DNA of 64,000 nt from Daejeonella sp. (GTDB taxonomy: Bacteria; Bacteroidota; Bacteroidia; Sphingobacteriales; Sphingobacteriaceae). The notes beneath the pieces were generated by a model that was not told the origin of the DNA, made no database searches, and saw only the letters and a list, made by a program, of their open reading frames with translations. The DNA is taken from contig NZ_JAUXXZ010000063.1 in assembly GCF_030684675.1 (NCBI RefSeq), positions 1 to 64,000 on the forward strand, written 5' to 3'. This document shows positions 4,631 through 50,837 of the stretch, in pieces; the first letter of the stretch is position 1, and each line of letters starts with the position of its first letter. Position numbers and translations under genes: made by a program.

Positions 4631-4689
4631 GGCTTGGGTGGGTTTTTAGTTATTGGAATGTGAGTTGTTCATTTGTGGACTGTGAGTTT

Positions 4690-4770: not shown

Positions 4771-4798
4771 CGCACCCAAAAATATCTTGGTACTATAC

Positions 4799-12419: not shown

Positions 12420-12536
12420 GATTTATAAGCTTATCAAATATTTTTACTGTTTCCTGTTTTTAAATCCGAGCTGAATCAAGTGTTTATATACGCTTCAGGC
12501 ATTTTCAATTTTCGTATTATCTCAAAACGATAGAAA

Positions 12537-13454
12537 CTATTGAATCAAATTCCTATCCTTCATCCAGTTAACAGCCCTCCCGAACCATTCCTCAAAAACA
12601 GGCTTTTTCAGGAATCCATGTTCCCCTTCAGAATAAATATGAAGTTCTGCATTGACCTTATTCTTACGCAAAGCATGGTAGAACCTGAAACTATTTTCAG
12701 AAGAAACTACTGTATCATCCGCCGTATGCACCAGAAAAGTTTGCGGAGTAGATTGGTTAACATGAAGTTCATTTGAGAAAAAATTGATCTTTTCGGCTGA
12801 TGGTGTCTTTCCTAAGAGATTATTACGGCTACCGATATGACCAATTTCATCTGAAAAGCTGATAACAGGATTAACGAGTACCATGAAATCTGGTCGAAGA
12901 TCTGTGTTCTCAGGATTTTCAATAATGCGGGCATCATAATGAGTACCTGCACTCGAGGCAAGGTGCCCTCCGGCAGAGAATCCCATAATTCCTATTTTTT
13001 TTGCATCAATATTCCAATGAACTGCATTCTGACGCACCGTTTTTAAGGCCTGCAGGGCATCCTGTAAAGGTCCGATAGATTTATCTTCCATAATTTCATC
13101 ATCCGGAAGACGGTATTTAAGAACAAATGCGGTGACGCCCAGTTTTGTAAAGGCTCTGGCCACATCACTACCTTCGCGTTTAGTGAGTAATCCGCCATAG
13201 CCTCCTCCGGGACAAATAATGACAGCCGCGCCATTAGATTGATTCTTTAAAGGCAGAAAAATGGTCAAAGTCGGAACGGATACTTTTCTGGTAACGGAAT
13301 CTACTAAAGCATTTGCGGTTATCTGCTCCTCATTGGCACTTAATCTGGAGTTGGGGATTTTTTTGGGATAAAGAGGAAGGATTTGTTGGGCGTTGGAGAT
13401 CTGATATGATAACACCAGATTCAAGGTTAGTATTAACCAGTTCTTATAATTCAT
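12537..13454 (-). CDS. secreted alpha/beta hydrolase, acetyl-xylan-esterase/BD-FAE-like
   Basis: 305 residues with a signal peptide ending near residue 22 (SNAQ). Catalytic elements are an oxyanion segment CPGGGYGGL near 81-89, the nucleophile elbow GFSAGGH with Ser160, an acidic residue in HTADDTVV and the catalytic His in GEHGFLKKP near the end. This is the layout of bacterial feruloyl/acetyl-xylan esterases, which deacylate plant polysaccharides in the periplasm. It precedes the large SGNH-dehydrogenase lipoprotein gene on the same strand, hinting at a shared role in plant-material use; that link is inference. Confidence 0.85.
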   Translation of the reverse strand: MNYKNWLILTLNLVLSYQISNAQQILPLYPKKIPNSRLSANEEQITANALVDSVTRKVSVPTLTIFLPLKNQSNGAAVIICPGGGYGGLLTKREGSDVARAFTKLGVTAFVLKYRLPDDEIMEDKSIGPLQDALQALKTVRQNAVHWNIDAKKIGIMGFSAGGHLASSAGTHYDARIIENPENTDLRPDFMVLVNPVISFSDEIGHIGSRNNLLGKTPSAEKINFFSNELHVNQSTPQTFLVHTADDTVVSSENSFRFYHALRKNKVNAELHIYSEGEHGFLKKPVFEEWFGRAVNWMKDRNLIQ

Positions 13455-33397: not shown

Positions 33398-36376
33398 TTA
33401 TTTCTGCTGCGCCTTTAGCCAGGCCAGGTGCAGCCCGGCGGGAATAAAGAGGCAGATTTTATTTCCGGGATTTTTTTCACTGGCAAATGCAGGCGACATC
33501 GAAATGGTAATGGCTTGCGAGCCAAAGTGGCTGAGTGCCGCAATTCGCTTTTTGATCAGTTCCATGCCCCGGCTTCTATGCCCGCTATCTTCTTTCAGGG
33601 CCAGACTGTTGGCTAAGCCGATTCCGTTATCTATGATGATGATCAGTAAATTTCCATCCTGTTGCTTCAAATCAATAAGCAATTCTCCGTCTATTGCCGA
33701 AGGCATAAGTCCATGCAGTAATGCATTCTCTAAAAGAGGCTGCAGGATCATTGTCGGAATCATCCAATCTTCCGGTTCTAAGTTTTCATCAATCATTATC
33801 TGATATGAAAACCGGTCATTAAAACGCATTTGCTCTAAACGCAGGTATATTTTTATATTTTCTATTTCCTGTTCCAGCGGGATAAACGATTGCTGGGCTG
33901 CTTCAAAGTTCTTCCGGATGAGGGAAGCAAAATCACTGAGATAGCGGTTGGCATTTTGCCTATCTTGTACATTAATATAATGCTGAATACTGTTAAGGGC
34001 ATTGAACATAAAATGAGGATTCATTAAGGAGGTAAAAGCCTGTTGCTCCAGCGATGCGGTCTGTACCCCCGCAATTTCCTTCACCAATTTCGCTTCTTTC
34101 CTTCTTTTCTGGCGCCGGTTCACCAGGTAGAAAATTATTAATTGCATTACGGAAGCTATAATCAACCAAAACCATATTGCCTTCCAAAAGGGTGTGGCAA
34201 TGTCAAATTGTATGGTGAGTGTTCTGGGGCTGATGTTCCCGTTTACATCTAACGCTCTAACCTGGATAACATGAGCGCCATTGTTCAGCTGAACGGTCAG
34301 CGTATTTTCATCTAAATTCGTCCAGTTTTCATTTTTATCCAGGGTGTACTGCAGGTTCTTAAAGTGACCGCTTAACTCGATACCGGCAAACTGCATTTGT
34401 ATATTTTGCTGCTGATAGCCAAGTTTATATCGGGCAGACAGGATAGTATCCCGCTGATTAATAGTGATGCGAATCAATTTTACCGGTATATTAAATTTGG
34501 GAATAGAAATATTGGCGGGTATTACAGAAATACCCTTACCGGTAGCAGCGTAAATGGTATCCTTTTGATACAGCATTTCATTAATCGAATTATGGCTTAA
34601 TCCGTCATTAACAGAGAGATTCTGAATGGAATAACTGATATTTCTGCCTTGTAATTTATAAGTAATGACACTGATGCCCTGGTTGGTTCCAAGCCATATC
34701 TTTCCGGGTCCTGCCGCGCTTATACTCAGCAAAGAGTTACTGATGATACCATCCTTTGCTGTAATATTTAACAATACCTTATCGTTCTTAACGATAACTA
34801 AGCCATTACTGGAAGTGGCAACCCATACCAGCTTATCGCGTGTTGCGCAAAGTGCTGTAATTCTATGGCTAAGCAAGGAGTTGCTTTGAGTTAGAGATGA
34901 AGAAACGTTCCTGTCATAATCATGCTTATATAAGCCATCTGTAGAACCATAATAGATAATCCCATCTGTTGTTCTCGTAAATGCCACGATCCTTTTATAG
35001 ATACTACCCAGACGACTAACCTTTTCTGTCCGTGAGTTAAGCTGGTTTAAGCCCGAGGTCAACCCAAAAATGATGATGCTATCATTATAACTCATGGCTG
35101 TTTTTGCAGGATAACTTGATTGGTTTATTGGATTGACCAACTTCCTGGTATAATTCACATATATGCCTCCCTCAGAAAAAGTAAAGACTTTGTTTTGCGA
35201 AATCAATATTTTTTTTTGCCTGAAATCTTTGCTTTGCGAGGGTATGCGGTGGATTTTACTTGTCCTTCCGTCTGTTTCAACTACCTCACCGTAGGAATTC
35301 CCCGCCAGCAAGCTTCCATCCCGTTTGCGGGCAATACTTAAAAGAACTGTTCCCTGTAAATCAGGGGGCATTTCCATTGTTGTAAATTGGCTATTCTTAT
35401 ACAGAATTAATCCTTTATCAACGGTGCTTGCCCAAACGTTTCCCTTACTGTCGTTAAACATGGAGTTGGGCAAATAGTTGCCGCTTATAACTAGCAGCTG
35501 TTGCAGTGTTTTTTTATCAAAAACATAGATTTTACCAGAGTTTCCCAACAAATACACATAGGTTTGAGTAAATCCAGAGACGAAAAAACGTTCGGGAATC
35601 TTAAGTGAATCCATTTTAAAACGAAGAGGATTTACTTTAAAATCACTGTAAATCAAGCATTTGCTCAGAGATGGATAGAAAATATATAATTTTCCATCGT
35701 CAACGGAGGGTTTTATATTTCGGGCGGAAAGGTCGTTTCGGCTCGTAGTTGTTATCACGAGACTATCAATAAACGCTGTACCCTTTGTTTGGTAGATCTT
35801 TGTTTGAAACAAGTTTAACACAGGATCAAGCTTGTTTCCTGTCCATCTCAATAGGGTTCCATCCTTGTTTTCCTTAAAAAGAAAATTACCAATCTTTAAA
35901 GTAGGGTATTCAATTAGTTTATTGTTACGGAAAATAAAAGATCCCCGTTCATTCACATATAATACGCCGCCTTCCTTCAGCGGATAAGAATACATATTGC
36001 TTGTACCCTCGCTTACTTTTGCCAGGCTGCTGTTTTCCCTTGCGTTTATGAACCTGTTTTGCACCTCGTCAAAATACGCCGGACCCTGTTTAAAACAGTT
36101 CACCCAGATCCGTCCGCTATTTTCTTTCATAACTTCCAGCACATCGTTATCGGGCAAACCCTGCAGGGTAGTAAATACCTGGAAACGTTTCCCGTCAAAC
36201 CTTGCAATTCCGGCATCAGTGGCTACCCATAAAAATCCTGAGTTGTCTTCAATACATTTGTATACATTATTGCTCGGCAGGCCATCACTTACGGTAAAAG
36301 CAGTATATTTTGATTGCTGTGCATGACAGGTAAGGCTTATAAAAAAAATTAGCAAAAGAAAAGCCACAAAACGCAT
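33398..36376 (-). CDS. Reg_prop/Y_Y_Y sensor histidine kinase (LytS-type)
   Basis: 992 residues from ATG 36376, which begins the signal/anchor (MRFVAFLLLIFF to CHAQ). A periplasmic two-component-regulator beta-propeller (Reg_prop repeats such as DNSGFLWVATDAGIARFDG, about 25-640) leads to a Y_Y_Y domain (about 650-735), one membrane helix (about 740-762), then a LytS-type kinase. The phosphorylated His is in MNPHFMFNALNSIQHY, and the ATPase N and G boxes are LQPLLENALLHG and IIDNGIGL. It should signal a periplasmic ligand to the LytTR regulator encoded just upstream. The frame stays open a further 18 codons upstream, overlapping that regulator gene's end. Confidence 0.92.
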   Translation of the reverse strand: MRFVAFLLLIFFISLTCHAQQSKYTAFTVSDGLPSNNVYKCIEDNSGFLWVATDAGIARFDGKRFQVFTTLQGLPDNDVLEVMKENSGRIWVNCFKQGPAYFDEVQNRFINARENSSLAKVSEGTSNMYSYPLKEGGVLYVNERGSFIFRNNKLIEYPTLKIGNFLFKENKDGTLLRWTGNKLDPVLNLFQTKIYQTKGTAFIDSLVITTTSRNDLSARNIKPSVDDGKLYIFYPSLSKCLIYSDFKVNPLRFKMDSLKIPERFFVSGFTQTYVYLLGNSGKIYVFDKKTLQQLLVISGNYLPNSMFNDSKGNVWASTVDKGLILYKNSQFTTMEMPPDLQGTVLLSIARKRDGSLLAGNSYGEVVETDGRTSKIHRIPSQSKDFRQKKILISQNKVFTFSEGGIYVNYTRKLVNPINQSSYPAKTAMSYNDSIIIFGLTSGLNQLNSRTEKVSRLGSIYKRIVAFTRTTDGIIYYGSTDGLYKHDYDRNVSSSLTQSNSLLSHRITALCATRDKLVWVATSSNGLVIVKNDKVLLNITAKDGIISNSLLSISAAGPGKIWLGTNQGISVITYKLQGRNISYSIQNLSVNDGLSHNSINEMLYQKDTIYAATGKGISVIPANISIPKFNIPVKLIRITINQRDTILSARYKLGYQQQNIQMQFAGIELSGHFKNLQYTLDKNENWTNLDENTLTVQLNNGAHVIQVRALDVNGNISPRTLTIQFDIATPFWKAIWFWLIIASVMQLIIFYLVNRRQKRRKEAKLVKEIAGVQTASLEQQAFTSLMNPHFMFNALNSIQHYINVQDRQNANRYLSDFASLIRKNFEAAQQSFIPLEQEIENIKIYLRLEQMRFNDRFSYQIMIDENLEPEDWMIPTMILQPLLENALLHGLMPSAIDGELLIDLKQQDGNLLIIIIDNGIGLANSLALKEDSGHRSRGMELIKKRIAALSHFGSQAITISMSPAFASEKNPGNKICLFIPAGLHLAWLKAQQK

Positions 36377-36413
36377 ACAAACGATTATTATACAGAGAAT
36401 TGTATAGAAGGTA

Positions 36414-37196
36414 CTATTTATTTTTGCCAAACATCAAACTGGCCATTTTCATTTTGTCGAGAAAGATGTCCAACTGCCTCCGGCTGATGCTCCACTGGTT
36501 TCCATCGCTCATTTTGACAATGCCACCATCAATTGTGCTGTATTCCTTAATATACCTGAGATTGACAATATAAGATTTATGGATCCTTGCAAACTGCTTC
36601 GTATCCAGCAACTCTTCAAAATCTTTCAGTGTTTTACTGATCACCAGTTTCTGCATATCCTTCATATGAATAATGGTATAGTTGCTGTCAGCCTGAAGGG
36701 ATACCATATCATCAACCTCAATAAAGCTAATGCTTCCTAGTTGCGGCAATGCGATTTTTTGGGGTGGCATTTTTTTATTAACTGTTTCCAGAAGATGCTG
36801 AAGTAAAGCATGATTCTGTTCCAATGCAGCCGGGTTGTTTAGTGACCTTTTTACTTTTTCTACTGCTTTTTGAAGCTCATCAATATTAACAGGCTTTAAA
36901 ATATAATCAACAGCGCTGGCCTTAATAGCCTGCAGTGCATATTCATTGTGTGCGGTTACAAAAACTACTTTAAAATTTTGAAAGCTAAGGCTTTTTAGAA
37001 ATTGAAATCCATCCTCAACCGGCATATTAATATCCAGGAAGATCACATCTGCATGATAAGTCTGTAACCATTCCCGTGCCTCTCTGGCATTCTGTGCTTT
37101 ACCGGCAACTTCTATCCCCTCACAGTCATGATGCAAAAGGAATTCCAGGCTTGTCAGGTTATTCACTTCATCATCAACTAACAATGCTTTCATCAT
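36414..37196 (-). CDS. LytTR-family response regulator
   Basis: 260 residues: a receiver domain at 1-120 with acidic pair LLVDDEVN, acceptor Asp in DVIFLDINMP (about 55), Thr in FVTAHN and Lys in YILKPVN; a linker; and a LytTR DNA-binding domain (about 160-255) with SISFIEVDDMVSLQADSNYT, ARIHKSYIVNLRYIKEY and ISRRQLDIFLDKMK. It is the first gene of the regulator-kinase pair; the kinase start lies 37 bp beyond its stop. The five surface genes downstream on the same strand are its most likely targets. Confidence 0.93.
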   Translation of the reverse strand: MMKALLVDDEVNNLTSLEFLLHHDCEGIEVAGKAQNAREAREWLQTYHADVIFLDINMPVEDGFQFLKSLSFQNFKVVFVTAHNEYALQAIKASAVDYILKPVNIDELQKAVEKVKRSLNNPAALEQNHALLQHLLETVNKKMPPQKIALPQLGSISFIEVDDMVSLQADSNYTIIHMKDMQKLVISKTLKDFEELLDTKQFARIHKSYIVNLRYIKEYSTIDGGIVKMSDGNQWSISRRQLDIFLDKMKMASLMFGKNK

Positions 37197-39246: not shown

Positions 39247-39297
39247 ATTTTCGGCGATGTTTGGAACTCTTTACCCCTCCTTCCTGCCTGAAAGGAG

Positions 39298-39590
39298 CTA
39301 CCCTGTACACACAAATATTACGAGATTAAACGAGCAAAAGATTGATTTAAATTGAGTTGTATAACATCATAGAGGATATAAAGAATTGCAAAAGATATGT
39401 ATAGAAGGTTCCCGCTTTCGCGGACAAGGCGATGCGATATATTATAGGAATACGGCCTTCGCCGGAATCTAAATGTACGGTCGTTTCCACTCCGATCCCG
39501 GAAGGCCGGGATCTCCCAATTAACAACAAAACGTTGTCATTCCGGCGCAGGCCGAAACCTCCATATTAAAAAAATGTGTGTACAGGGTAG
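39298..39590. mobile_element. MITE with perfect 16-bp inverted ends and 10-bp target duplication
   Basis: CTACCCTGTACACACA at 39298-39313 is repeated exactly inverted at 39575-39590. The element is flanked by identical 10-mers CTGAAAGGAG at 39288-39297 and 39591-39600, a target-site duplication. The 293-bp interior has no transposase frame and contains two GC-rich dyads (for example GATCCCGGAAGGCCGGGATC). Ends starting CT with an inner TACACA and a 10-bp duplication suggest an IS4-like parent; that assignment is inference. Confidence 0.9.
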
Positions 39591-39827
39591 CTGAAAGGAG
39601 GCCTGACAGTCTACAGGCTTAATCAATATCTCCTTCAAGAGCTAAACTTCATAGTACTACTCAATTAAAAAAGATAACTAATAATTATGTATTTTTAATT
39701 TAGGATATTATAAGCTGGGGAGAAAACTGGGGTTGAACATAGCTAGCTGTAAAAACCGTCCTGGATTGGTGCTTTGTGTTATGAAGTAAGAAACTCCGCA
39801 CGAGGCTGTGGTAAATAATTTAACTCT

Positions 39828-41012
39828 ATGTTGAAGATAATCCTTTTGCTTCTCCTTACTTTCTGCTTCTCAACCAAGAGTTACGATCAAACTAGCGCTA
39901 AAGACAGTCTGAAAACCTTGCTTAAAAAAGAAAAGCGGGATACCGTTAGAGTAATTTTATTAGCCGACCTTTCTTATTATTACTCTAACAACCATCCGGA
40001 TACTGCCATACAACTAGCTTTAGATGCTTTGTCTCTCGCCAAAAGAATTGGGTTCATTAAATGCCAGGCCCTCAGCTTAAACAGAATCGGTACGGATGGT
40101 TTAGCGCACATTAACATTGCGAGAAGTTATTTATCCTTAAAAGAATATGCGTTGGCAAGAGCCTATTCTAACCAGGCCTACGAAATAGCAAACAAGAGGA
40201 ACAATCGTACTCGAATTGGAAATGCTTTATACGTGACTGGCGCAATCTATTCAGGAACAGGGCACAAAAACCTTGCGTTAGAATATTTCCGTCTAAGCAT
40301 ACCATATTCAAAAATGACGGAAAATCATGTGAATTTAGCTAACACTTATCTAGGCATGGCGCAGCTATTCAGAAAAGATCAGAGGATAGATTCAACTTTA
40401 TTTTATGTAAAGAAGGCCTTCACTATTACCCGAAAAGCCGGGTTTACAAAAGGAACTCTTGAATCAAGCACGTTCCTTTCTACCATTTATGAGGAAAAAG
40501 GAAATTCAGACAGTGCTTTCTTTTATCTAAAGGCGGCTAAACTTGCTAAAGACTCATTATTCAATCAGCAGAATATTAACCAGGTCCACAATCTCGGTTT
40601 TGAAGAAAAAATTCGACAGATAGAAATTGCTACTACAGAATTAAAAGACAAAGAAGAACGATCACATAACCTTCAATATGCTGCCATCGCGATTGTTTTG
40701 ATCACTTTCCTTATTTCATTCCTTATTCTGAGCCGCAGCATCATCGTAAAAACTAAGTTTATCGAATTTTTTGGTGTGCTTGGTTTACTGGCTGTGTTCG
40801 AATTCATCAACCTGTTTATTCATCCATACCTGGCTCATGCTTCAAATGATTCGCCAGTCCTGATGCTGCTGGTACTAATTGTTATCGGGGGAATGCTGGT
40901 ACCACTGCATCATAAACTGGAGCAATGGATTACTAAAATAATGGTGGAAAAGAATAAGAAAATTCGGCTGGATGCTGCGAAGAAAACCATAGCTACTCTA
41001 GAACCAAATTAA
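39828..41012 (+). CDS. TPR-membrane protein, array copy 1 (short form)
   Basis: 394 residues, the first of seven tandem paralogues. Signal peptide to about 19, then the array's N-terminal phrase (DSLKTLLKKEKRDTVRV), TPR helices, a short charged coiled-coil (about 265-285) and the common membrane module: helix 1 at about 288-306, the shared SRSIIVKTKFIEFFG, helix 2 to HPYLAH, helix 3 to PLHHKLE, and a cytoplasmic tail ending IRLDAAKKTIATLEPN. It is about 75 residues shorter than its neighbours: after RIGT (about 89) the sequence jumps to LAHINIARSYLSL, so about two TPRs are missing in frame. The next gene's ATG overlaps its stop (TAATG). Confidence 0.88.
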   Translation: MLKIILLLLLTFCFSTKSYDQTSAKDSLKTLLKKEKRDTVRVILLADLSYYYSNNHPDTAIQLALDALSLAKRIGFIKCQALSLNRIGTDGLAHINIARSYLSLKEYALARAYSNQAYEIANKRNNRTRIGNALYVTGAIYSGTGHKNLALEYFRLSIPYSKMTENHVNLANTYLGMAQLFRKDQRIDSTLFYVKKAFTITRKAGFTKGTLESSTFLSTIYEEKGNSDSAFFYLKAAKLAKDSLFNQQNINQVHNLGFEEKIRQIEIATTELKDKEERSHNLQYAAIAIVLITFLISFLILSRSIIVKTKFIEFFGVLGLLAVFEFINLFIHPYLAHASNDSPVLMLLVLIVIGGMLVPLHHKLEQWITKIMVEKNKKIRLDAAKKTIATLEPN

Positions 41013-42424
41013 TGGTTATGAAAAAAATAATTTTACTGCTGTTTGCTTATTCTTTGTGCCTGACAAACAGTAAGGCTCAATCAACACATCAGGCAAAGGT
41101 GAGAGATAGCCTGAAAATTTTATTAAAAAAGGAAAAGCAGGATACCAACAGGGTGATGTTACTAGTCCAACTCAGTAATGCGTACACTAGTGATAAACCA
41201 GATACTGTTATGCTTCTGGCATTAGAAGCTTTTTCTCTTTCAAAACGTCTTGCATTCATCAAAGGACAAGCTAATAGTTTGGGGAGAATCGGCGGCGTTT
41301 ACCGTGTTCTAGGCAATTTTCCTAAAGCAATGGAATTTTCGTTAAAGGCTTTGAAGCTGAATGAAAAAATTGATAATCTTGCTGGCATAGCAGGTAACCT
41401 CAGTAATATAGGACTTATATATCGTGATCAAGAACAATACCATCAGGCAATTGATTATTTTTTGAAAGCGAAAAAACTAAGAGAACAGCTAAACATTAGC
41501 GATAGAACTCAGTTAGTTACCATCACCAGTATTGGGAAAAGTTATTTGGGGTTAAAACAATATGATTCTGCGAGAGTCCATGCCCAGCAGGCATATGAAA
41601 TAGCAAGCAAGACAAATAGCACAATTAAAGGAATCCCATTATCTCTAATGGGGAGTATTTATTCGGAAACAGGACAAAAGAAACTTTCGTTGGAATATTA
41701 CCGTCTGAGCTTACCCTATTTAAAGCTGGCGAAGGACAATATAAACCTAAACATTACATTTCTTGGTATTGCTAAATTGTTTGAAGTTGAAGGGCAGATA
41801 GACTCAACCTTGTTTTATGCAAACCATGCATTCGAGACTAGTAGAGGTGCAGGACTTACTATTGGAATCCGTGATGCCAGTAGTTTCTTATCTTCCTTTT
41901 ACGAAAATAGAAGGAATGCTGATAAAGCCTTGTTTTACCATAAAGTAGCAAAAGCAGCTAACGATTCTTTATCTAGCATGGAAAAAATCAACCAATTTCA
42001 GAGCCTTAGTTTTGATGAAAAAATCAGACAAAGTGAAGTCACAGCAGCAGAATTAAAAGCAAAATTAGATAGAAAACACAATCTTCAGTATGCAGCTATT
42101 GCCACTGGTTTGATCGCCTTCATCATCCTATTCTTTGTCCTCAGCCGCAGCATTATTGTAAAAACTAAATTCATTGAGTTTTTTGGTGTGCTGGGTTTGT
42201 TAGCTGTATTTGAGTTCATCAACCTGTTTATTCATCCCTACCTGGCTCACCTTACAAATGATTCTCCGGTTTTAATGCTGGGGATATTAATTGCAATTGG
42301 AGCTTTACTCATCCCGTTTCATCATAAACTGGAGATGTGGATCACTAAAGTAATGGTTGAAAAGAATAAGAAAATACGGTTGGAAGCGGCGAAGAAAACC
42401 ATAGCGTCTTTAGAACCAAATTAA
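41012..42424 (+). CDS. TPR-membrane protein, array copy 2
   Basis: 470 residues. It opens at an ATG overlapping the previous stop, but an ATG six bases on (41018, MKKIILLLF) matches the spacing of the other copies and is the likelier start. Signal peptide to about 22 (NSKAQ), about seven to eight TPR units (for example GNFPKAMEFSLKALKLNEKI, EQYHQAIDYFLKAKKLREQL), coiled-coil linker and the three-helix module. Its third helix is of the LGILIAIGALLIPF type, shared with copies 4 and 7, and its tail ends LEPN as in copy 1. By topology the TPRs face the periplasm and the tail the cytoplasm. Function unknown. Confidence 0.88.
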   Translation: MVMKKIILLLFAYSLCLTNSKAQSTHQAKVRDSLKILLKKEKQDTNRVMLLVQLSNAYTSDKPDTVMLLALEAFSLSKRLAFIKGQANSLGRIGGVYRVLGNFPKAMEFSLKALKLNEKIDNLAGIAGNLSNIGLIYRDQEQYHQAIDYFLKAKKLREQLNISDRTQLVTITSIGKSYLGLKQYDSARVHAQQAYEIASKTNSTIKGIPLSLMGSIYSETGQKKLSLEYYRLSLPYLKLAKDNINLNITFLGIAKLFEVEGQIDSTLFYANHAFETSRGAGLTIGIRDASSFLSSFYENRRNADKALFYHKVAKAANDSLSSMEKINQFQSLSFDEKIRQSEVTAAELKAKLDRKHNLQYAAIATGLIAFIILFFVLSRSIIVKTKFIEFFGVLGLLAVFEFINLFIHPYLAHLTNDSPVLMLGILIAIGALLIPFHHKLEMWITKVMVEKNKKIRLEAAKKTIASLEPN

Positions 42425-42429
42425 CGCTT

Positions 42430-43857
42430 ATGAGAAAGATAATTCTACTAATAGCCGCTTTCGTTTGGCTGACTAATGTTGAAGCGCAGACGAAACATCA
42501 TATCGACAGCTTAAATAAGGTAGTTGCTACTACAAAACAGGATACGGAAAAAGTAATGACACTTTTGAGACTTAGTATCCTTAATAAAAATAATCCTGTA
42601 AGTAAATTTTCAATAGCAAATAAAGCATTAGTATTAGCAAGAAAAATAAAATTTGAAAAAGGTGAAGCAGATTGTTACTACGCCTTAGGTGATTATTTTA
42701 TCAATATCAGTGATTATCCCCAATCATTGGAATACAACCTAAAAGCTTTAAAATTAAGCGAGAAGCTTGATTATTCGCCTGGTATTGTTAGGTCATTAGG
42801 TGCTGTAGGCCATGTTTATAGTACTCTGCAAAACGATGAAGCAGCATTAGCTTATTACTTTAAACAGTCAGAGGTTTTAACGCAAAATATTATACCACTC
42901 CAATCGAGCTCATGGGCCTTATTATATACTAGAATTAGCAGAATTTATCTAAGACAAAACAAGCTTGATTCTGCTTTAATATACTCCATGAGAAGTAATG
43001 AGAAGGCTACCAAAGCAAAAACTAATTTAGGACTTGTATTAACAGATTTGGCAAATGTATACACAGCCATGGGTAACTCCGAACTGGCTTTTTTATATTA
43101 CCGGATGAGTATGGCACAAGCAAAACAAAATAACAACATGGCTGCTTTAGGCAGCTGCTACCTTGCTCTAGCCAAATTATTTATTAAAACTTCCACTAAA
43201 GATTCCGCTATTTATTACGCAAAGCAGGCACTTACCCTATCTGGCTCCAGACAAAATAAAGAGGGACTGATGAATTCTGCCAAACTACTAGCGCAACTTT
43301 ATGAAAACAAAGACAATACAGATGCGAAATATTACAAGATGGCAATGGAAGCACAAGAGAGTATTTCCAGCGGGGCTCAAATAGCACAAATTCAGAGCCT
43401 GTCTTTTACTGAACAAGAAAGGCAAAGAGAGGTCAACGAGTCCAAATTAAAAGAAGCGGAAGAAAGAAAACACAACCTCCAATTTGCCGCCATAGCAATC
43501 GGACTTATAACCTTTATCATCCTATTTTTTGCCCTCAGCCGCAGTATTATCGTCAAAACCAAATTCATTGAATTTTTTGGTGTGCTTCTACTGCTTGCTG
43601 TATTCGAATTTATCAATCTGTTTATTCATCCTTACCTGGCGCATGCTACAGATGACTCGCCAGTGCTGATGCTGCTTATACTCATTATTATAGGTGCAAT
43701 GCTGGTACCACTGCATCACAAGCTTGAGAAGTGGATCACTAAAATAATGGTGGAGAAAAATAAGAAGATACGTTTGGAAGCAGCGAGGAAAACTATTGAA
43801 AATCTGGAGCCAACCGTTGCCGAAGCATCTACAGGTAGAACTGAACAAACTATTTAG
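42430..43857 (+). CDS. TPR-membrane protein, array copy 3 (type B sensor)
   Basis: 475 residues, starting five bases after copy 2. Signal peptide to about 19 (NVEAQ). The TPR half is of a second type, shared only with copy 6: it opens IDSLNKVVATTKQDTEKVM, has FSIANKALVLARKIKFEKGE and YPQSLEYNLKALKLSEKLD, and differs from copies 1, 2, 4, 5 and 7 throughout. The membrane module is the shared one, with LLLLAVFEFINLF and LLILIIIGAMLVPL variants also found only in copy 6. The tail is extended (EPTVAEASTGRTEQTI). Confidence 0.88.
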   Translation: MRKIILLIAAFVWLTNVEAQTKHHIDSLNKVVATTKQDTEKVMTLLRLSILNKNNPVSKFSIANKALVLARKIKFEKGEADCYYALGDYFINISDYPQSLEYNLKALKLSEKLDYSPGIVRSLGAVGHVYSTLQNDEAALAYYFKQSEVLTQNIIPLQSSSWALLYTRISRIYLRQNKLDSALIYSMRSNEKATKAKTNLGLVLTDLANVYTAMGNSELAFLYYRMSMAQAKQNNNMAALGSCYLALAKLFIKTSTKDSAIYYAKQALTLSGSRQNKEGLMNSAKLLAQLYENKDNTDAKYYKMAMEAQESISSGAQIAQIQSLSFTEQERQREVNESKLKEAEERKHNLQFAAIAIGLITFIILFFALSRSIIVKTKFIEFFGVLLLLAVFEFINLFIHPYLAHATDDSPVLMLLILIIIGAMLVPLHHKLEKWITKIMVEKNKKIRLEAARKTIENLEPTVAEASTGRTEQTI

Positions 43858-43860
43858 ATT

Positions 43861-45246
43861 ATGAAAAGTATCATTCTTTTTTTGGCAGCTTTCTTTTGCA
43901 TCACAAGCTTGAACGCTCAAAACTTTAACGTAGGTAAGAATACAAAAGACAGCCTGAAAATTCTATTGCAAAAAGAAAAGCAGGACACCGGTAGGGTGAT
44001 GTTATTGACTGAACTTGCTTACGCGTTCAATACCAATAATCGAGATACTACCATAATACTGGCATTGGAAGCCTTGTCACTTTCACAGCGAATTGGATTC
44101 GTCAAGGGACAAGCAGCCAGTTTGATAAGAATAGGAAGCTATTATAATGCTTCAGGCAATAGGGCAAAAGCCATGGAAGTTTTTTTGAAGGCTCTGAAGC
44201 TCAGTGAAAAAATAAACTACATTAATGGTATATCAGGAAGCCTTAATAACATAGGACTTATTTATCACCTTCAAGGAGAATATCATCAGGCAATTGATTA
44301 TTATTTGAAAGCAAAAAAACTGAATGGACGAAATAACCGGGAGATTGCAACCAATCTTAGGCTTCTTGGCAGCAGCTATTTCCAGTTAAAACGTTATGAT
44401 TCTGCAAAAGTCTATACCCAGCAGATATACCAGGTTACAGGAAAAGAGCCGTTTGACTTACTTGGAAATATTTATTCAGGAATGGGGCAAAAGAAACTTG
44501 CCCTGGAATATTATCGTCTGCAAATGCCAATTACAAGAAAAAACGAAAGCAATATGGGATTGGGATCTTTGTCTCTTCAGATGGCTAGAATGTTTGAAAG
44601 TGAAGGACAGATGGATTCCACGCTGGTTTATGCAAACCAGGCATTCAAAATTTTAAAAGGGGCCGGGTTTACATCTGGCACTCTTAATGCCAGTAGTTTT
44701 CTGTCTTCTTTTTACGAACGCAAAGGAAATGCAGATAGCGCCTTCTTCTATCTCAAAATAGCGAAAGCTGCTAACGATTCTCTATTCGGTCGGGAAAGAG
44801 TTAATCAACTTCATGGTCTTGGTTTTGACGAAAAGCTAAGGCAAATTGAAATCACAGCCGTCGAACTAAAAGAAGCAGAAGATAGAAAACACAACCTTCA
44901 ATATGCCGCCATTGCTATCGGACTTATCACTTTTATCATATTATTTTTCGCTCTCAGCCGCAGCATTATCGTAAAAACTAAATTCATCGAGTTTTTTGGC
45001 ATTCTTGGGTTATTGGCCGTATTCGAATTCATCAATCTTTTTATACATCCCTACCTAGCTCATGTTACAAATGATTCACCAGTGTTAATGCTGGGTATAC
45101 TAATTGCCATTGGAGCTTTGCTCATCCCGTTTCATCATAAACTGGAGCAATGGATTACTAAAATAATGGTGGAGAAAAATAAGAAGATACGTTTGGAAGC
45201 AGCGAGGAAGACTATAGCAACATTGGAGGGATCACCAGTTACTTAA
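43861..45246 (+). CDS. TPR-membrane protein, array copy 4
   Basis: 461 residues, starting three bases after copy 3. Signal peptide to about 20 (SLNAQ), N-terminal phrase DSLKILLQKEKQDTGRVMLL, then TPRs including GNRAKAMEVFLKALKLSEKI and GEYHQAIDYYLKAKKL. One segment near 190 (ITGKEPFDLLGNIYSGMGQ) is shorter than in copy 2 by about ten residues. The third helix is of the copy-2/7 type (LGILIAIGALLIPF) and the tail ends LEGSPVT, matching copy 5 (LEGAPVT). This tail sharing between neighbours fits local gene conversion or stepwise tandem duplication. Confidence 0.88.
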   Translation: MKSIILFLAAFFCITSLNAQNFNVGKNTKDSLKILLQKEKQDTGRVMLLTELAYAFNTNNRDTTIILALEALSLSQRIGFVKGQAASLIRIGSYYNASGNRAKAMEVFLKALKLSEKINYINGISGSLNNIGLIYHLQGEYHQAIDYYLKAKKLNGRNNREIATNLRLLGSSYFQLKRYDSAKVYTQQIYQVTGKEPFDLLGNIYSGMGQKKLALEYYRLQMPITRKNESNMGLGSLSLQMARMFESEGQMDSTLVYANQAFKILKGAGFTSGTLNASSFLSSFYERKGNADSAFFYLKIAKAANDSLFGRERVNQLHGLGFDEKLRQIEITAVELKEAEDRKHNLQYAAIAIGLITFIILFFALSRSIIVKTKFIEFFGILGLLAVFEFINLFIHPYLAHVTNDSPVLMLGILIAIGALLIPFHHKLEQWITKIMVEKNKKIRLEAARKTIATLEGSPVT

Positions 45247-45251
45247 AGCTT

Positions 45252-46655
45252 ATGAAAAAAATACTACTATTACTCGTTGCTTTCTTCTGTCTTGCAAATA
45301 GTTATGGTCAAACAAACCTTCTAAAGGATAGCCTGACAACATTATTAAAGAAGGAAAGGCAAGACACCAGCAGGGCATTACTATTAGCCGCACTTAGCCG
45401 CACATACGCACTTAATAAACCAGATACGGCTATTACGCTCGCACTGGAAGCCTTGTCGCTGTCACAACGTATTGCATTTGCAAAAGGAGAAGTAGCCAGT
45501 TTGAGTGGAATTGGTAACGCTTATCGGGCAATCGGCAATTTACCTAAAGCAATGGGAGCTTATTTACAGGCGCTAAAGCTTAGCGAAAAAATTAGTCACT
45601 CTGGCGGTATAGGATTAAGTCTCCATGATATAGGAACAATTTATATCGCACAGGGTGAATACCATAAAGCAATCTACTATTTGTTGAAATCACAAAAGCT
45701 TCATAAAGAGATCAATAAATATCTTGTTACGAATGGCATGAGCGAAGTCAGACTTGGAAATAGCTATTTCGGGTTAAAGCAATATGATACAGCAAGAGTC
45801 TATACCCAACAAGCATATGAGAAAGCAAGAAAGCTTAATAATCCCTTTGCAACAGGAGTCGCTTTAACTTTAATGGGCGACATTTACACAGAAACAGGAC
45901 AAAGAAAACTTGCACTGGAATATTACAGACTGAGCATACCTTATAATAAGTTAGGAAATGAACTGAGCTTAACGGATACATTCCTTGGTATAGCCAAATT
46001 GTTTGCGAATGAAGGACAAATGGATTCAACTCTATTTTATGCAAATCAAGCTTTCGAAATTAGTAGAGGAGCAGGATTTACTTTGAAAATGCGAGATGTA
46101 AGTAGTTTGTTATCTTCCTTTTATGAGAACCGGGGAAACACAGATAGAGCCTTGTTTTACTTAAAAATAGCTTCAGCAGCGAAGGATTCTCTATCCAGCC
46201 AGCAAAGAATTAATCAACTTAAAAGCCTTGACTTTGATGAAAAACTCAGACAACAAGAAATTGCAATGACCGAATTAAAAACTGAAGAAGATAAACGACA
46301 CAATCTTCAATTCGCAGCTCTGGCCATTGGCCTGATCACTTTCATCATCTTATTTTTTGCACTTAGCCGCAGCATTATCGTCAAGACTAAGTTCATTGAA
46401 TTCTTTGGTATTCTCGGTTTGTTAGCTGTATTTGAGTTCATCAATCTTTTTATTCATCCCTACCTGGCTCATGCTACAAACGACTCGCCTGTGCTCATGT
46501 TGCTTGTACTTATTGTAATAGGTGGCCTGCTGGTACCGCTTCACCATAAACTGGAGAAATGGATCACTAAAATAATGGTAGAGAAGAATAAGAAAATACG
46601 GTTGGATGCGGCCAGGAAAACTATCGCAAATCTGGAAGGTGCTCCAGTTACTTAA
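45252..46655 (+). CDS. TPR-membrane protein, array copy 5
   Basis: 467 residues, starting five bases after copy 4. Signal peptide to about 19 (NSYGQ), DSLTTLLKKERQDTSRALLL, TPRs (GNLPKAMGAYLQALKLSEKI, GEYHKAIYYLLKSQKLHKEI), linker with RQQEIAMTELKTEEDKRHN, and the shared module. The third helix (LLVLIVIGGLLVPL) matches copy 1 rather than the adjacent copy 4, while the tail (LEGAPVT) matches copy 4, so the gene looks mosaic. No kinase, HTH or other output domain follows the module. Confidence 0.88.
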   Translation: MKKILLLLVAFFCLANSYGQTNLLKDSLTTLLKKERQDTSRALLLAALSRTYALNKPDTAITLALEALSLSQRIAFAKGEVASLSGIGNAYRAIGNLPKAMGAYLQALKLSEKISHSGGIGLSLHDIGTIYIAQGEYHKAIYYLLKSQKLHKEINKYLVTNGMSEVRLGNSYFGLKQYDTARVYTQQAYEKARKLNNPFATGVALTLMGDIYTETGQRKLALEYYRLSIPYNKLGNELSLTDTFLGIAKLFANEGQMDSTLFYANQAFEISRGAGFTLKMRDVSSLLSSFYENRGNTDRALFYLKIASAAKDSLSSQQRINQLKSLDFDEKLRQQEIAMTELKTEEDKRHNLQFAALAIGLITFIILFFALSRSIIVKTKFIEFFGILGLLAVFEFINLFIHPYLAHATNDSPVLMLLVLIVIGGLLVPLHHKLEKWITKIMVEKNKKIRLDAARKTIANLEGAPVT

Positions 46656-46660
46656 ATCTT

Positions 46661-48079
46661 ATGAAAAGACTAATATTTTTGATCACCTTGATCTTTATCT
46701 CAAAGAGCCTTTTTGCCCAGACGAAACAGCAGATCGATAGCTTAAAGAATGTTATCGCTACTACAACACAGGATACTGCGAAGGTTATGGCACTTTGCTT
46801 ACTTAGCCGATATGAGTTGGATAATGTAAGAAAATTTTCAATAGTAGCTAAAGCATTAGCATTAGCTAGAAAGATAAAGTTTGAAAAAGGTGAAGCACAA
46901 TGTTACAATCAATTGGGCAATTATTTTAGAATTACCAGTGATTATCCCCAATCATTGGAATACAACTTAAAAGCTTTAAAAATAAGAGAGAAGGATCCTT
47001 ATACCCAAGAGTATTTTAGTTCATTAAATGATATAGGCCTTGTATATTCAGACCAGCAAAACAATGAAGCAGCATTAGCTTATTATTTTAAAGCGGAAGA
47101 GATTTTGGGACGAACTAAAGTACCGTATAATGGGCTCTTTTTATTTACAAGAATTGGCGCCATTTATCTACGGCAAAATAAGCTGGACTCCGCTTTAATA
47201 TATTACACTAAAAGTTATGAAAAAGCCAGGAAAGCTTGGAAATCTCATTTAAGTGGTCCATTAATAGGTTTAGGGAATGTGCACAATGCAATGGGTAACA
47301 CAGAACTTGCTTTTTCATATTATCGGATGAGTATAGCTAGCATTGCAGATAACCGATTAGTCATGTTACCTCAAAGTTACATGGGGCTTGCCAGACTATT
47401 CATGAAGACAAGTAATAAAGATTCTGCATTCTATTATGCAAAACAGGCGATGGCTATGCACAATCAGAGACAAAGTAAAGCCGGTGTGATGAGTGCTGCC
47501 AAACTACTAGCGCAACTATATGAAAACAGGGACGGTAACGAAGCAGCCCGATATTATAAAATGGCATTGGAGGCAACTGACAGTGTTTTCAGTGGTTCTA
47601 GAACAGTTCAGATCCAAAACATGTCTTTTGCTGAAGCGGAAAGACAAAGAGAGATCAATGAGTCCAAGTTAAAAGATGCAGAAGACAGAAAACACAATCT
47701 CCAATTTGCAGCTATTGCCATTGGGCTGATCACATTTATCATTCTGTTTTTTGTCCTCAGCCGCAGCATTATTGTAAAGACTAAGTTCATTGAGTTTTTC
47801 GGTGTGCTTCTACTGCTTGCTGTATTCGAATTCATTAACTTGTTTATTCATCCCTACCTGGCGCATGCTACAGATGACTCGCCAGTGCTGATGCTGCTTA
47901 TACTCATTATTATCGGTGCAATGCTGGTACCACTGCATCACAAGCTTGAGAAATGGATCACTAAAATCATGGTGGAGAAGAATAAGAAAATTAGGTTAGA
48001 GGCTGCCAGAAAAACTATCGAAAGCCTGGAGCCCGTCCTCCCTATTAATGCGGTGGGTAAAACTGAACAGAATCTTTAA
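46661..48079 (+). CDS. TPR-membrane protein, array copy 6 (type B sensor)
   Basis: 472 residues, starting five bases after copy 5. Partner of copy 3: IDSLKNVIATTTQDTAKVM, FSIVAKALALARKIKFEKGE, YPQSLEYNLKALKIREKD, and the same LLLLAVFEF and LLILIIIGAMLVPL helices. Signal peptide to about 20 (SLFAQ). The first TPRs are the most similar to copy 3, while the middle (about 130-230) differs more, suggesting divergence in the part that would bind a ligand or partner. The tail is EPVLPINAVGKTEQNL, like copies 3 and 7 in the final TEQ. Confidence 0.88.
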   Translation: MKRLIFLITLIFISKSLFAQTKQQIDSLKNVIATTTQDTAKVMALCLLSRYELDNVRKFSIVAKALALARKIKFEKGEAQCYNQLGNYFRITSDYPQSLEYNLKALKIREKDPYTQEYFSSLNDIGLVYSDQQNNEAALAYYFKAEEILGRTKVPYNGLFLFTRIGAIYLRQNKLDSALIYYTKSYEKARKAWKSHLSGPLIGLGNVHNAMGNTELAFSYYRMSIASIADNRLVMLPQSYMGLARLFMKTSNKDSAFYYAKQAMAMHNQRQSKAGVMSAAKLLAQLYENRDGNEAARYYKMALEATDSVFSGSRTVQIQNMSFAEAERQREINESKLKDAEDRKHNLQFAAIAIGLITFIILFFVLSRSIIVKTKFIEFFGVLLLLAVFEFINLFIHPYLAHATDDSPVLMLLILIIIGAMLVPLHHKLEKWITKIMVEKNKKIRLEAARKTIESLEPVLPINAVGKTEQNL

Positions 48080-48084
48080 AGATT

Positions 48085-49497
48085 ATGAAAAAAATAATTT
48101 TTCTTTTATTAACTAATTTCTTTTCCCTGACAACAGTGCATGCTCAAACACATGTTAGGGATAGCCTGAAACTATTACTGCAAAAAGAAAAAACAGACAC
48201 CAGCCGTGTTTTACTTTTATCTGATCTTGCTTTCGAATACGTAGGATCAAAACCGGATACAATGATGGTGCTGGCTTTAGAAGGCTTATCACTGTCAAGC
48301 CGCATAGGTTTTCTAAAAGGAGAAGCAGTAAGTCTAAACAGGATTGGAGGTGCATTTTCTAATTTAGGTAATTATCCTCAGGCAATGGAATCCCTACTTC
48401 AGGCATTAAAGATCAATGAAAAGATGAAAAATCTTGATGGAATGGGAAGAAATCTTAACCAAATTGGAGGTATTTATTATGCACAAGGAGATTACAGGCT
48501 TGCTTTAGATTATTATGTGAAGGCAACTGCATTAGCAGAAAAAATGAATAATAAGATTTTACTCTCTATTTACCTCAATGGTGTTGGGAGGACTTATATG
48601 AATTTAAAAAAAATTGATTCTGCAAGACTTTTCGTACAACAAGCGTATAATGTAGCATATGAGGTTCATAATTCCAGGATAATTGGCAGTTCATTAACCT
48701 ATTTGGGAGACATCCATTCTGCAACACGACAAGACAGGCTGGCATTGGAATATTACCGGCTAAGTATTCCTTATTCAGAAAAAGCAGAAAATTATGCGGG
48801 TCTAAGCGGAACCTTTCTGGGCATGGCAAAATTATTTGAAAAAAGCGGACAGAATGATTCCAGTCTTATTTATGCAAAAAGGGCTTTTTTATTTGTTAAG
48901 GAAAAAGGATTTACAAAAGCAATTCTTGATGCCAGCAGCTTCTTATCCACTTTTTACAGGAACAGGCGGAATATGGATAGCTTACTCTTTTACCAGGACA
49001 TCTCTAAATCGGCTTACGATTCTTTATTCAGTCAGCAAAAAACCATGCAGCTTCAAAGTATTGGCTTTGATGAAAAACTCAGACAAATGGAAATTGCGGA
49101 AGATAGAAAGAACAATCTCCAATTTGCAGCTATGGCCATTGGACTGATCACCTTTATTATCCTGTTTTTCGCACTCAGCCGCAGCATTATCGTAAAAACT
49201 AAATTCATTGAATTCTTTGGAATTCTTGGCTTGCTTGCGGTGTTCGAATTCATCAATCTTTTTATACATCCATACCTCGCGCATCTGACCAATGATTCTC
49301 CGGTTTTGATGCTGGGAGTGCTAATTGCAATCGGGGCCTTGCTAATACCATTTCATCATAAATTGGAGAAATGGATCACTAAAATAATGGTGGAGAAGAA
49401 TAAGAAAATACGGCTGGAAGCGGCGAAGAAAACGATAGCAATCTTGGAACCCGCCTTCGTTGAAACTACTGCGGGTAAAACTGAACAAAGCGATTGA
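48085..49497 (+). CDS. TPR-membrane protein, array copy 7
   Basis: 470 residues, starting five bases after copy 6 and the last intact member. Signal peptide to about 20 (TVHAQ), DSLKLLLQKEKTDTSRVLLL, TPRs (GNYPQAMESLLQALKINEKM, GDYRLALDYYVKATALAEKM). The coiled-coil linker is shortened (RQMEIAEDRKNN; the usual MTELKxxEE part is missing). Helix 3 is of the copy-2/4 type (LGVLIAIGALLIPF), and the tail EPAFVETTAGKTEQSD resembles copies 3 and 6. The next array position is occupied by an ATPase gene and an eighth-copy stump. Confidence 0.88.
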   Translation: MKKIIFLLLTNFFSLTTVHAQTHVRDSLKLLLQKEKTDTSRVLLLSDLAFEYVGSKPDTMMVLALEGLSLSSRIGFLKGEAVSLNRIGGAFSNLGNYPQAMESLLQALKINEKMKNLDGMGRNLNQIGGIYYAQGDYRLALDYYVKATALAEKMNNKILLSIYLNGVGRTYMNLKKIDSARLFVQQAYNVAYEVHNSRIIGSSLTYLGDIHSATRQDRLALEYYRLSIPYSEKAENYAGLSGTFLGMAKLFEKSGQNDSSLIYAKRAFLFVKEKGFTKAILDASSFLSTFYRNRRNMDSLLFYQDISKSAYDSLFSQQKTMQLQSIGFDEKLRQMEIAEDRKNNLQFAAMAIGLITFIILFFALSRSIIVKTKFIEFFGILGLLAVFEFINLFIHPYLAHLTNDSPVLMLGVLIAIGALLIPFHHKLEKWITKIMVEKNKKIRLEAAKKTIAILEPAFVETTAGKTEQSD

Positions 49498-49525
49498 CAA
49501 ATCACAATTTTTCGGGATATAAACA

Positions 49526-49562
49526 TTGGACAAATCCGGAATTAAATTCCGGATTTGTCCAA
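49526..49562. promoter_or_regulatory. perfect 17-bp dyad before the ATPase gene
   Basis: TTGGACAAATCCGGAAT and its exact complement are separated by TAA, giving a 17-bp stem with a 3-base loop, 20 bp before the ATPase ATG. There is no T tract of terminator type, and its position over the promoter suggests an operator or a mobile-element end. It may also block read-through from the TPR operon. Confidence 0.75.
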
Positions 49563-49582
49563 AATAGTCGTATCTTTAACCT

Positions 49583-50743
49583 ATGATTCAGCGTACAGCA
49601 GCAATAAGGTTGATGAAACTTGCAAAAACATTCCGCAGCGTTGCAGTGGTAGGGCCCAGGCAAAGCGGCAAAACCACTCTTTGCAGAAATGTTTTTCCGC
49701 AAAAGCCTTATGTTTCATTAGAAAACCCCGACATATTGGAATTCGCCGATTCCGACCCAAGGGGTTTCCTTTCTCAATATAGAAACGGCGCTATACTAGA
49801 TGAAATACAACGAGCGCCTCACTTATTTTCTTATTTACAGCAGGTGCTGGATGAAACAAAAAAGAAAGGGTTGTTCGTACTAACTGGTTCCAACAATTTT
49901 TTATTGCAGGAAAATATTACACAAACTCTCTCAGGCAGAATTGCATATTTAACTTTGCTGCCATTATCGCTAAAGGAATTAAAAGACAGCAAAAAAATAA
50001 AAGCAGATTACGGCTGGCATATCCTGCATGGTGGGTATCCCGAAGTAATTGCAAAAAAAATAAATCCGGCAGACTGGTATACAAGCTATATAAATACTTA
50101 TGTTGAAAGAGATGTCAGGCAATTAAAAAATATCAGCAACCTTTCTCAGTTTACAAAATTACTCCGCTTATGTGCCGGACGAACAGGACAGTTACTCAAC
50201 CTGACTTCTCTTTCCAACGATTGTGGCATTGACCAGAAAACTGTATCTGCCTGGTTAAGTATTTTGCAAAGCAGTTATATCATTTATTTATTAAAACCTT
50301 ATCACGGTAATTTTAATAAGCGGATCATAAAAACATCCAAACTTTATTTTTACGATACAGGTGTTGCCTCTTCTTTGCTTGGCATTACTAATGCAAAGCA
50401 AATAGCTACCCATGCTGCCAAAGGAGCTTTATTTGAAAACATGATAGTTTCTGATCTTTTGAAAGAAAGATTCAATAAAGGTGCTGCCGATAACCTTTAT
50501 TTCTGGCGTGATAAAACAGGAAATGAAGTAGATATATTATTAGATACAGCAGGTAAATTAACAGCATTAGAATTGAAAGCCGGGGAAACAATATCAACCG
50601 ACTTCTTTAAAGGCCTGGAATATTTTTCTTCATTAAAATCCAATACTGTTCAAAAAACAGTAATCTATGGTGGGAAGCAAGAACAGACAAGGAGCAACGA
50701 TATTATAGTAAAACCATGGGATAAATATCCCTCTACATCATAA
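49583..50743 (+). CDS. AAA-type ATPase with DUF4143 C-terminal domain
   Basis: 386 residues, cytoplasmic. AAA_14 domain at about 18-150 with Walker A GPRQSGKTTL and Walker B GAILDEIQRAP, sensor LTGSNNFLLQ; a winged-helix part near 185-225; and the DUF4143 domain (about 190-345) ending in a PD-(D/E)xK-like signature EVDILL and ALELKAG. The family is common and frequently horizontally moved; its role is unknown. The gene sits inside the TPR array: its last codons (KYPSTS) and stop are out-of-frame sequence of an eighth TPR copy, so its 3' end lies at an insertion/deletion junction near 50730. A perfect dyad precedes the start. Confidence 0.9.
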   Translation: MIQRTAAIRLMKLAKTFRSVAVVGPRQSGKTTLCRNVFPQKPYVSLENPDILEFADSDPRGFLSQYRNGAILDEIQRAPHLFSYLQQVLDETKKKGLFVLTGSNNFLLQENITQTLSGRIAYLTLLPLSLKELKDSKKIKADYGWHILHGGYPEVIAKKINPADWYTSYINTYVERDVRQLKNISNLSQFTKLLRLCAGRTGQLLNLTSLSNDCGIDQKTVSAWLSILQSSYIIYLLKPYHGNFNKRIIKTSKLYFYDTGVASSLLGITNAKQIATHAAKGALFENMIVSDLLKERFNKGAADNLYFWRDKTGNEVDILLDTAGKLTALELKAGETISTDFFKGLEYFSSLKSNTVQKTVIYGGKQEQTRSNDIIVKPWDKYPSTS

Positions 50744-50837
50744 ACTTGAGAAATGAATAACCAAAAAAATGGTGGAGAAAAATAATAAGATAAGGTTAGA
50801 AGCAGCAAAGAAAACGATTGAGCAATTGGGAGGCTAA
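50730..50837 (+). pseudogene. 3' stump of an eighth TPR-membrane copy
   Basis: 36 codons read PLHHKLEK, then TGA where the other copies have TGG (Trp), then ITKKMVEKNNKIRLEAAKK and TIEQLGG with a normal stop at 50835-50837. This is the invariable cytoplasmic tail of the array proteins. The rest of the copy is missing, replaced by the ATPase gene, with which the stump overlaps by 14 bases. Confidence 0.9.

Follow-up and report, generated by a model that had tools for sequence, protein, structure and literature searches.

What do seven consecutive genes do whose products begin with diverse tetratricopeptide repeat (TPR) halves and end in almost one and the same membrane segment? The genes form an array in a 64,000-nucleotide stretch of Daejeonella sp. 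(assembly GCF_030684675.1, contig NZ_JAUXXZ010000063.1, positions 1 to 64,000), the whole of which is referred to here as the window. We read the array as a set of FimS-like periplasmic receptors in which the kinase would be replaced by a shared membrane output module, and we place this reading at slightly better than even odds (about 0.52).

Architecture of the seven-gene array

The seven open reading frames (ORFs), named W1 to W7, lie consecutively on the + strand and span 39828-49497 in the ORF listing of the window. W1 and W2 overlap by 1 bp and all other gaps are 3-5 bp, which bears out the description in the initial annotation of close or overlapping genes with a common layout. Every array protein is composed of a signal peptide, TPRs, a coil, three predicted transmembrane (TM) helices and a basic tail, the signal peptides and topology being taken from a reading of the sequence and models. 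TPR models score above cut-off in all seven, and no other domain model does so. The segments SRSIIVKTKFIEFFG and AVFEFINLFIHPYLAH and the tail core VEKNKKIRL, noted earlier as identical throughout, are confirmed by alignment as invariant across the seven copies. The array had at first been extended to position 50837; it ends at 49497, and is followed by an ATPase gene (49583-50743) and then by the 3' remnant of an eighth copy, which accounts for the earlier end coordinate.

The copies differ mainly in their TPR halves. W1 (394 aa, 39828-41012; module 40641-41006) has a shortened TPR region, ~76 residues shorter than in the 470-aa W2 (41012-42424; module 42056-42418), which overlaps the stop of W1 by 1 bp. 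W3 (475 aa, 42430-43857; module 43447-43812) and W6 (472 aa, 46661-48079; module 47669-48031) carry TPR halves of a second lineage, which pair with each other (bootstrap 100). W4 (461 aa, 43861-45246; module 44866-45243) has a 53-bp module tract identical to W3, and W5 (467 aa, 45252-46655; module 46275-46652) is the basis of the structure models. The TPR half of W7 (470 aa, 48085-49497; module 49093-49452) groups with that of locus L042 from another genome (bootstrap 74-92).

Searched with one module, the same genome (4,254,550 bases, 84 contigs, 98.97% complete) yields nine matching places: the array copies W1 to W7, the eighth-copy remnant and an intact ninth copy on contig C14, at 58% identity. 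The longest exact DNA match between any two array copies is 59 bp, so that a repeat-driven assembly artefact is unlikely.

The membrane module

The C-terminal module, present in all seven copies, is defined by the signature R...NLQ...FEF...P...P...PxH...E and three predicted helices, and every copy matches its profile (A4) at E 1e-32 or better. In the AlphaFold2 model of the module, built from 68 homologues (mean predicted local distance difference test score (pLDDT) 90.3, predicted template modelling score (pTM) 0.61), the helices comprise residues 2-76 (coil into TM1), 82-111 and 116-165. The full-length model of W5 (40 rows; mean pLDDT 89.8, pTM 0.77) is composed of helical hairpins, and its helix 317-373 enters the membrane. 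The coil is thus predicted to continue through TM1 as a single unbroken helix. The TM1-TM2 loop and the tail are read as cytoplasmic because basic residues fall there; this positive-inside reading, together with the signal peptide, would place the TPR half in the periplasm.

The most conserved positions in the alignment of 68 modules, from which partial modules and locus L081 were excluded, are P132 (68 of 68), F97 (67), P106 (66), L94, E98 and H134 (65 each), P116 (64), Q56 (63) and R51 (61), numbered as in the 170-residue model. Among the histidines in or next to the membrane that had been proposed as a conserved set, only the PxH His is close to universal (65/68); the HP His is kept in 44 (Asp in 15, Glu in 5) and the second His of HPYLAH in 16.

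Database searches place the module in no described family. At E<=1, any Pfam family that matches at all does so in at most 3 of 24 members, the strongest of these matches having E 0.00058 in one member, and NCBIfam gives nothing over TM2 and TM3 in W3 and W5, the two copies scanned. A sequence search of the PDB returns a single match (E 0.097). VIA-align rows reach Z 7.0, a level usual for helical bundles; the SdhD rows in the fold search were not taken as evidence for heme. Among the top-listed papers, judged by titles and abstract openings, none describes this array or module. To that extent the module is undescribed in the Pfam, NCBIfam and PDB libraries and in these papers.

A FimS-like sensor half without a kinase

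TPR sensors occur in Bacteroidota; the one that has been studied, the kinase FimS of P. gingivalis, senses through periplasmic TPRs, and its signal is unknown (PMC11053733). FimS is the best NCBIfam model for both copies scanned (W5, E 4e-18; W3, 3.8e-9), with scores of 65 and 35 bits, far under the curated cut-off of 600. The match of W5 covers residues 239-373, that is, the last TPRs, the coil and TM1. The array proteins share with the FimS-type kinase (NF053520) an N-terminal hydrophobic segment, a periplasmic TPR sensor and a coil leading into a TM helix. Unlike FimS, they possess no HisKA or HATPase domain, and where FimS has its kinase they carry a short tail preceded by two more TM helices; no HisKA/His_kinase or HATPase_c domain is found in any of the seven at E<=1.

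Kinases with related TPR halves are encoded in the same genome. Apart from the array and the C14 copy, a search of it with the TPR half of W5 brings up six frames. Those on contigs C77, C13, C14 and C51 read as histidine kinases (the one on C14 confirmed by Pfam), that on C7 is kinase-like without a visible ATPase part, and that on C26 is a short frame with stops; five of the six TPR homologues beyond the module family are therefore kinases or kinase-like on this reading. In a tree of 34 TPR halves, the C14-type module proteins are joined by the kinases of C51 and C7 (support 86), and the kinases of C77, C13 and C14 fall among module proteins on the other side with low support. The ninth copy itself lies after the gene of a 1367-aa histidine kinase and is followed by an aminotransferase gene and then a TPR kinase gene. 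Such kinases, together with a tail without catalytic domain, would allow the array proteins to be output-less decoys or co-receptors sequestering the ligands of their sister kinases. A decoy does not need the membrane part to be its most conserved protein segment, and we consider this explanation highly unlikely.

Other TPR receptors are more distant. RRNPP/Rap peptide receptors also form a TPR superhelix, and Foldseek matches start from E 7.9e-7, a similarity of fold alone. Rap proteins are cytoplasmic and have a different N-terminal domain. As to anti-phage defence, PADLOC returns only TPR-protein models for W3 and W5, the two of the seven copies that were scanned. At locus L151 of another genome, a gene for a TPR-SpoIIE phosphatase (2826-4916) lies 335 bp upstream of a frame with two module units; its product resembles the array proteins in having a TPR region and one apparent TM helix, and differs in its catalytic SpoIIE output.

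The module on propeller-type sensors

The same module is also found at the C terminus of five proteins with Reg_prop and/or Y_Y_Y domains (L094, L095, L096, L097, L101), detected through weak profile matches with single-profile E-values of 2e-10 to 3e-4. In Pfam scans of three of them, Y_Y_Y is present in all three, and Reg_prop is clear in one and at cut-off in another. An hhalign comparison of the five C-termini with the module gives a probability of 98.5 (E 3.9e-15), against best values of 52.9 for the probability and 1.4e-4 for E over sixty local column shuffles, and 1.7 for the reversed control. Two further weak matches (L098, L099), in short or stop-ridden frames, were left unused. Some members of the Reg_prop/Y_Y_Y propeller sensors of Bacteroidota thus end in the module of the array. 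They differ in their propeller-type ectodomain and far diverged module, and the array proteins contain TPRs only, with no Reg_prop or Y_Y_Y above cut-off. In Reg_prop/Y_Y_Y sensors the C-terminal place is normally occupied by a kinase. A Reg_prop kinase is encoded in the window (33398-36430), and no Reg_prop/Y_Y_Y protein ending in the module turned up in the same genome.

These proteins also bear on the view that the array encodes subunits of a TPR-gated ion- or proton-conducting channel using the Glu of FEF and the His of PxH. Both residues are kept in 65 of the 68 homologues and the Pro adjacent to the His in all 68, and the His position reads Glu in four of the five propeller-type members (position 134, letters from the alignment). 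The Glu is replaced by Gln in two of these five, three short helices would need an oligomer, and no channel fold is matched beyond the middling Z usual for helical bundles. We consider a channel highly unlikely too.

Occurrence, tandem sets and fused doubles in other genomes

The occurrence of the module in Bacteroidota is patchy. With a single-module query, 14 of 150 genomes match; profile searches find it in 23/301 genomes at the family level, 52/395 at the class level and 16/296 at the phylum level, each count including the genome of the window. Among the 19 other genomes of the genus three match, one through a fragment at a contig end. Nine of the 52 class-level genomes match only at E above 1e-6. 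One place was found in 36 of these 52 and more than one in 16 (genome G000 among the latter), copy numbers that are lower bounds, as the best 12 or 15 candidates were scored per genome. Genome G116 holds 29 module places by the single-module query.

Such a distribution suits a core machine poorly, which matters for another alternative, in which TPR proteins anchored by the module would be a scaffold for an envelope machine or for varied clients, with no signalling. TPRs are generic protein-binding repeats, the best-scoring solved folds for the model are LGN scaffold TPR domains with the Rap receptors lower, and the array proteins lack a recognisable output domain. A scaffold leaves the presence of the module on propeller-type sensors and the kinases among the TPR relatives to be explained, and we rate it as unlikely.

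Related bacteria had been thought to hold single copies only; this view is wrong, since two to four module genes stand in tandem in other genomes. L043 contains at least three and L044 at least two, both running off the contig. G183 holds two tandem pairs, one with a small ORF between. L147 comprises four module-matching genes and one adjacent TPR gene without a module match, L148 and L150 contain three module genes each, and L149, L154 and L155 two each, with start-stop overlaps in several of these sets. In addition, frames of the order TPR-module-TPR-module are present in G126 (L018), G114 (L151) and G116 (L152 and L153; L038 is part of L152). The seven copies and remnant of the window form the longest array found in this non-exhaustive survey.

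Around the single-copy module gene, six genomes of genus g14 have neighbours in common. A divergent upstream gene of one cluster is present in all six (L102-L107), and Pfam identifies a caspase (Peptidase_C14) in the two checked. Beyond g14 two sharings were seen, neither adjacent to the module gene: a gene at L052 falls in a g14 cluster, and L111 and L113 have a common cluster. At L047, a WD40-caspase gene lies immediately upstream of a frameshifted copy.

Contrast between the TPR half and the module

Averaged over the 21 copy pairs, the proteins have an identity of 0.43 over the TPR half and 0.84 over the module and tail, or 0.87 once the tail end is omitted. The mean proportion of synonymous differences (pS; our own Nei-Gojobori script) is 0.73 in the TPR half and 0.66 in the module, and that of nonsynonymous differences (pN) 0.375 and 0.098. 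Since synonymous sites are near saturation in both halves, the constancy of the module points mostly to selection at the protein level. In W3-W6, the least saturated pair (the others are near saturation), the ratio of nonsynonymous to synonymous rates (dN/dS) comes to about 0.36 for the TPR half against 0.08 for the module; the TPR half is therefore likewise under purifying selection. The variability of the TPR half is one of weaker constraint and separate origins, with no sign of diversifying selection in these comparisons.

Median Kimura distance ratios (TPR half to module) show where this contrast comes from, with the reservation that distant TPR alignments are possibly misregistered in part. 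The ratio is 8.16 for the whole array (21 pairs), 4.41 inside the main clade of W1, W2, W4, W5 and W7 (10 pairs) and 10.57 between this clade and W3/W6 (10 pairs). It is 4.58 between the main clade and its nearest homologues L040, L041 and L042 (15 pairs) and 5.00 among these three (3 pairs). In the mostly single-copy homologue sets of genera g14 and g15 it is 2.32 and 2.70 (15 pairs each), so that the two halves of homologues elsewhere are not equally conserved either. The excess over the whole array is due to the comparisons of the main clade with W3/W6; the contrast as such belongs to the close family, and the speciality of the array is that two TPR lineages sit on almost one module. The picture of a variable sensor half joined to a constant membrane half, already drawn in the initial annotation, agrees with these identities, with the module on propeller-type sensors and with the FimS-like TPR half.

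Separate histories and gene conversion

In the TPR trees, the main clade and L040-L042 form a clade (bootstrap 100) with the W3/W6 pair (100) outside, and a clade of all seven TPR halves is rejected by the approximately unbiased (AU) test (p 6e-98 for protein, 1e-48 for DNA). The AU constraints were picked after inspection of the trees, and bootstrap values were computed as splits. Elsewhere, the TPR half of L044b groups with the C14 copy and L014 (bootstrap 100) and that of L043b with L012 (84-94), whereas the module trees set the C14 copy, L014 and L012 apart from L044b together with every array-type module (100). The TPR grouping of L044b or L043b is rejected when imposed on the module (AU p 0.0002-0.0009), as is the module split when imposed on the TPR halves (p about 0.001). 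Judged from these trees, TPR halves and modules have partly separate histories.

W3 and W4 share 17 consecutive identical codons in the module (1/5000 permutations, p=0.0002), a run that survives correction for 21 pairs and indicates gene conversion. Shorter of significance, the runs of W1-W4 (0.0038) and W3-W6 (0.0056) fail this correction. L043b and L043c agree in third positions more along the module (0.57-0.97) than along the TPR half (0.2-0.5), with pS of 0.40 versus 0.82 (run test p 0.011). The view that recent conversion alone made the module constant was rejected, given that the synonymous difference is similar in both halves for most pairs.

Conversion tracts and weak TPR constraint could also describe a family that expanded neutrally or selfishly, with no division of labour. 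The deletion in W1, the TPR dN/dS below 1, a distance ratio at least as high among the nearest homologues as in the main clade, and the copies reduced to remnants or frameshifted in the window and at L042, L046 and L047 all fit such an expansion. Yet all seven frames are open, both TPR lineages are retained, and the modules are 84-87% identical despite near-saturated synonymous sites, so that selection holds the module. We regard this reading as quite unlikely.

Flanks of the array

The eighth-copy remnant (about 50721-50837, + strand; 50715-50834 in the module search) is a decayed 3' end with an in-frame stop (TGA), and its DNA aligns with the array copies' 3' ends at 77-83% identity. Between W7 and this remnant lies the DUF4143/AAA_14 ATPase gene (49583-50743, + strand), which is no array member; its product matches the PADLOC candidate defence family PDC-S01 (E 1.2e-105). 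A palindrome with 17-bp arms (49526-49562) separates the array from the ATPase gene. Even when up to 3 mismatches are allowed, the inner 33 bp have a single occurrence in the genome, and the palindrome is possibly an end-of-operon hairpin. On the other side, between a metallo-beta-lactamase-fold gene and the array, a ~300 bp element resembling a miniature inverted-repeat transposable element (39285-39605) has 18-bp perfect terminal inverted repeats (39296-39313 and 39575-39592); contigs C55 and C28 carry copies of it with 95-96% identity, the C28 copy being broken into two pieces.

Mobile cargo may gather at the ends of arrays. At L042, a full copy and a 3' remnant are separated by a DUF5615 (PIN-like) gene (9303-9844); a DUF433 antitoxin proposed there was not borne out, with no open frame in the frame read. 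At L041, a phage-integrase-like gene (11661-13166) follows the module-gene copy. A small gene at L046 that looked RelE/ParE-like has no Pfam match. The remnant boundaries are not alike in the window, L042 and L046, so decay by insertion is simpler than an attachment site at the 3' end of the array, and these boundaries do not suggest a fixed cassette-type recombination site.

A model for the array

We infer that the seven genes form an operon for receptors with a common partner, possibly oligomeric, and that the signal runs from the TPR half to the module. The proteins would be inner-membrane receptors, probably co-translated, each exposing a periplasmic TPR superhelix as in FimS-like sensor kinases. 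A long helix is predicted to pass unbroken from the last TPR into TM1, and the place of the kinase would be taken by the three membrane helices of the module and a short basic helix in the cytoplasm. A ligand or protein bound by the TPRs may move or twist this helix and thereby change the state of the module, which would hand the signal to the common partner in the membrane or cytoplasm. Strong purifying selection, and partly gene conversion, would keep the modules alike, with TPR halves of different origin kept side by side. Candidates for the switch are E98 and H134, as no ionisable residues within the predicted TM2 and TM3 are better conserved.

Several results weigh against the FimS-like receptor reading. 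No recognisable output domain was found in the array proteins, and Foldseek with the module gives no match below E 1e-3. Position 98 is Glu in three and Gln in two of the five propeller-type members, so the FEF Glu is not constant. The interleaving of kinase and module TPR halves is supported at 86 or below. The clustering of 15 neighbourhood regions and four of the seven in a second set yields no partner gene conserved across genera; the profile survey with copy number and neighbours, proposed at the outset, thus traced the module to 52 of 395 class genomes but gave no such partner. Moreover, the codon comparison of the array pairs, most of them near saturation, gives no sign of positive selection and no nonsynonymous excess in the TPR half, leaving, from the comparison by half suggested earlier, the stronger constraint on the module. 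The nearest homologues, in three pairs, reach a distance ratio of 5.0, which the main clade (4.4) does not surpass. The seven window modules form a clade in FastTree (0.84) and none in the IQ-TREE module trees, and imposing the TPR clade on them gives AU p 0.227 for protein and 0.010 for DNA (DNA Shimodaira-Hasegawa test 0.113); a history of the window modules apart from their TPRs is only moderately supported by these tests.

The initial annotation, with receptors or channel subunits serving different partners and feeding one output, perhaps as one hetero-oligomer, is partly supported overall. Its hetero-oligomer and channel readings would draw indirect support from the close or overlapping genes and the fused doubles elsewhere. 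Close spacing, neighbours fused in other genomes and the near identity of the modules would speak for a shared interface or for mixed oligomers. In a further-reaching version, which we hold to be unlikely as a whole, a transferable three-helix module would add to the kinases and fused regulators as an output of the periplasmic sensors of Bacteroidota and would signal inside the membrane to a common partner, and mixed oligomers of diverse sensors would integrate their inputs. The intramembrane signal would perhaps pass through the conserved Glu and PxH positions, and selection with gene conversion would hold the diverse sensors to one interface.

If the FimS-like receptor reading is true, a module replacing the kinase on two kinds of sensor would define a new, testable output class. 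Tandem copies that have exchanged halves provide ready-made chimeras in which sensor and output can be told apart.

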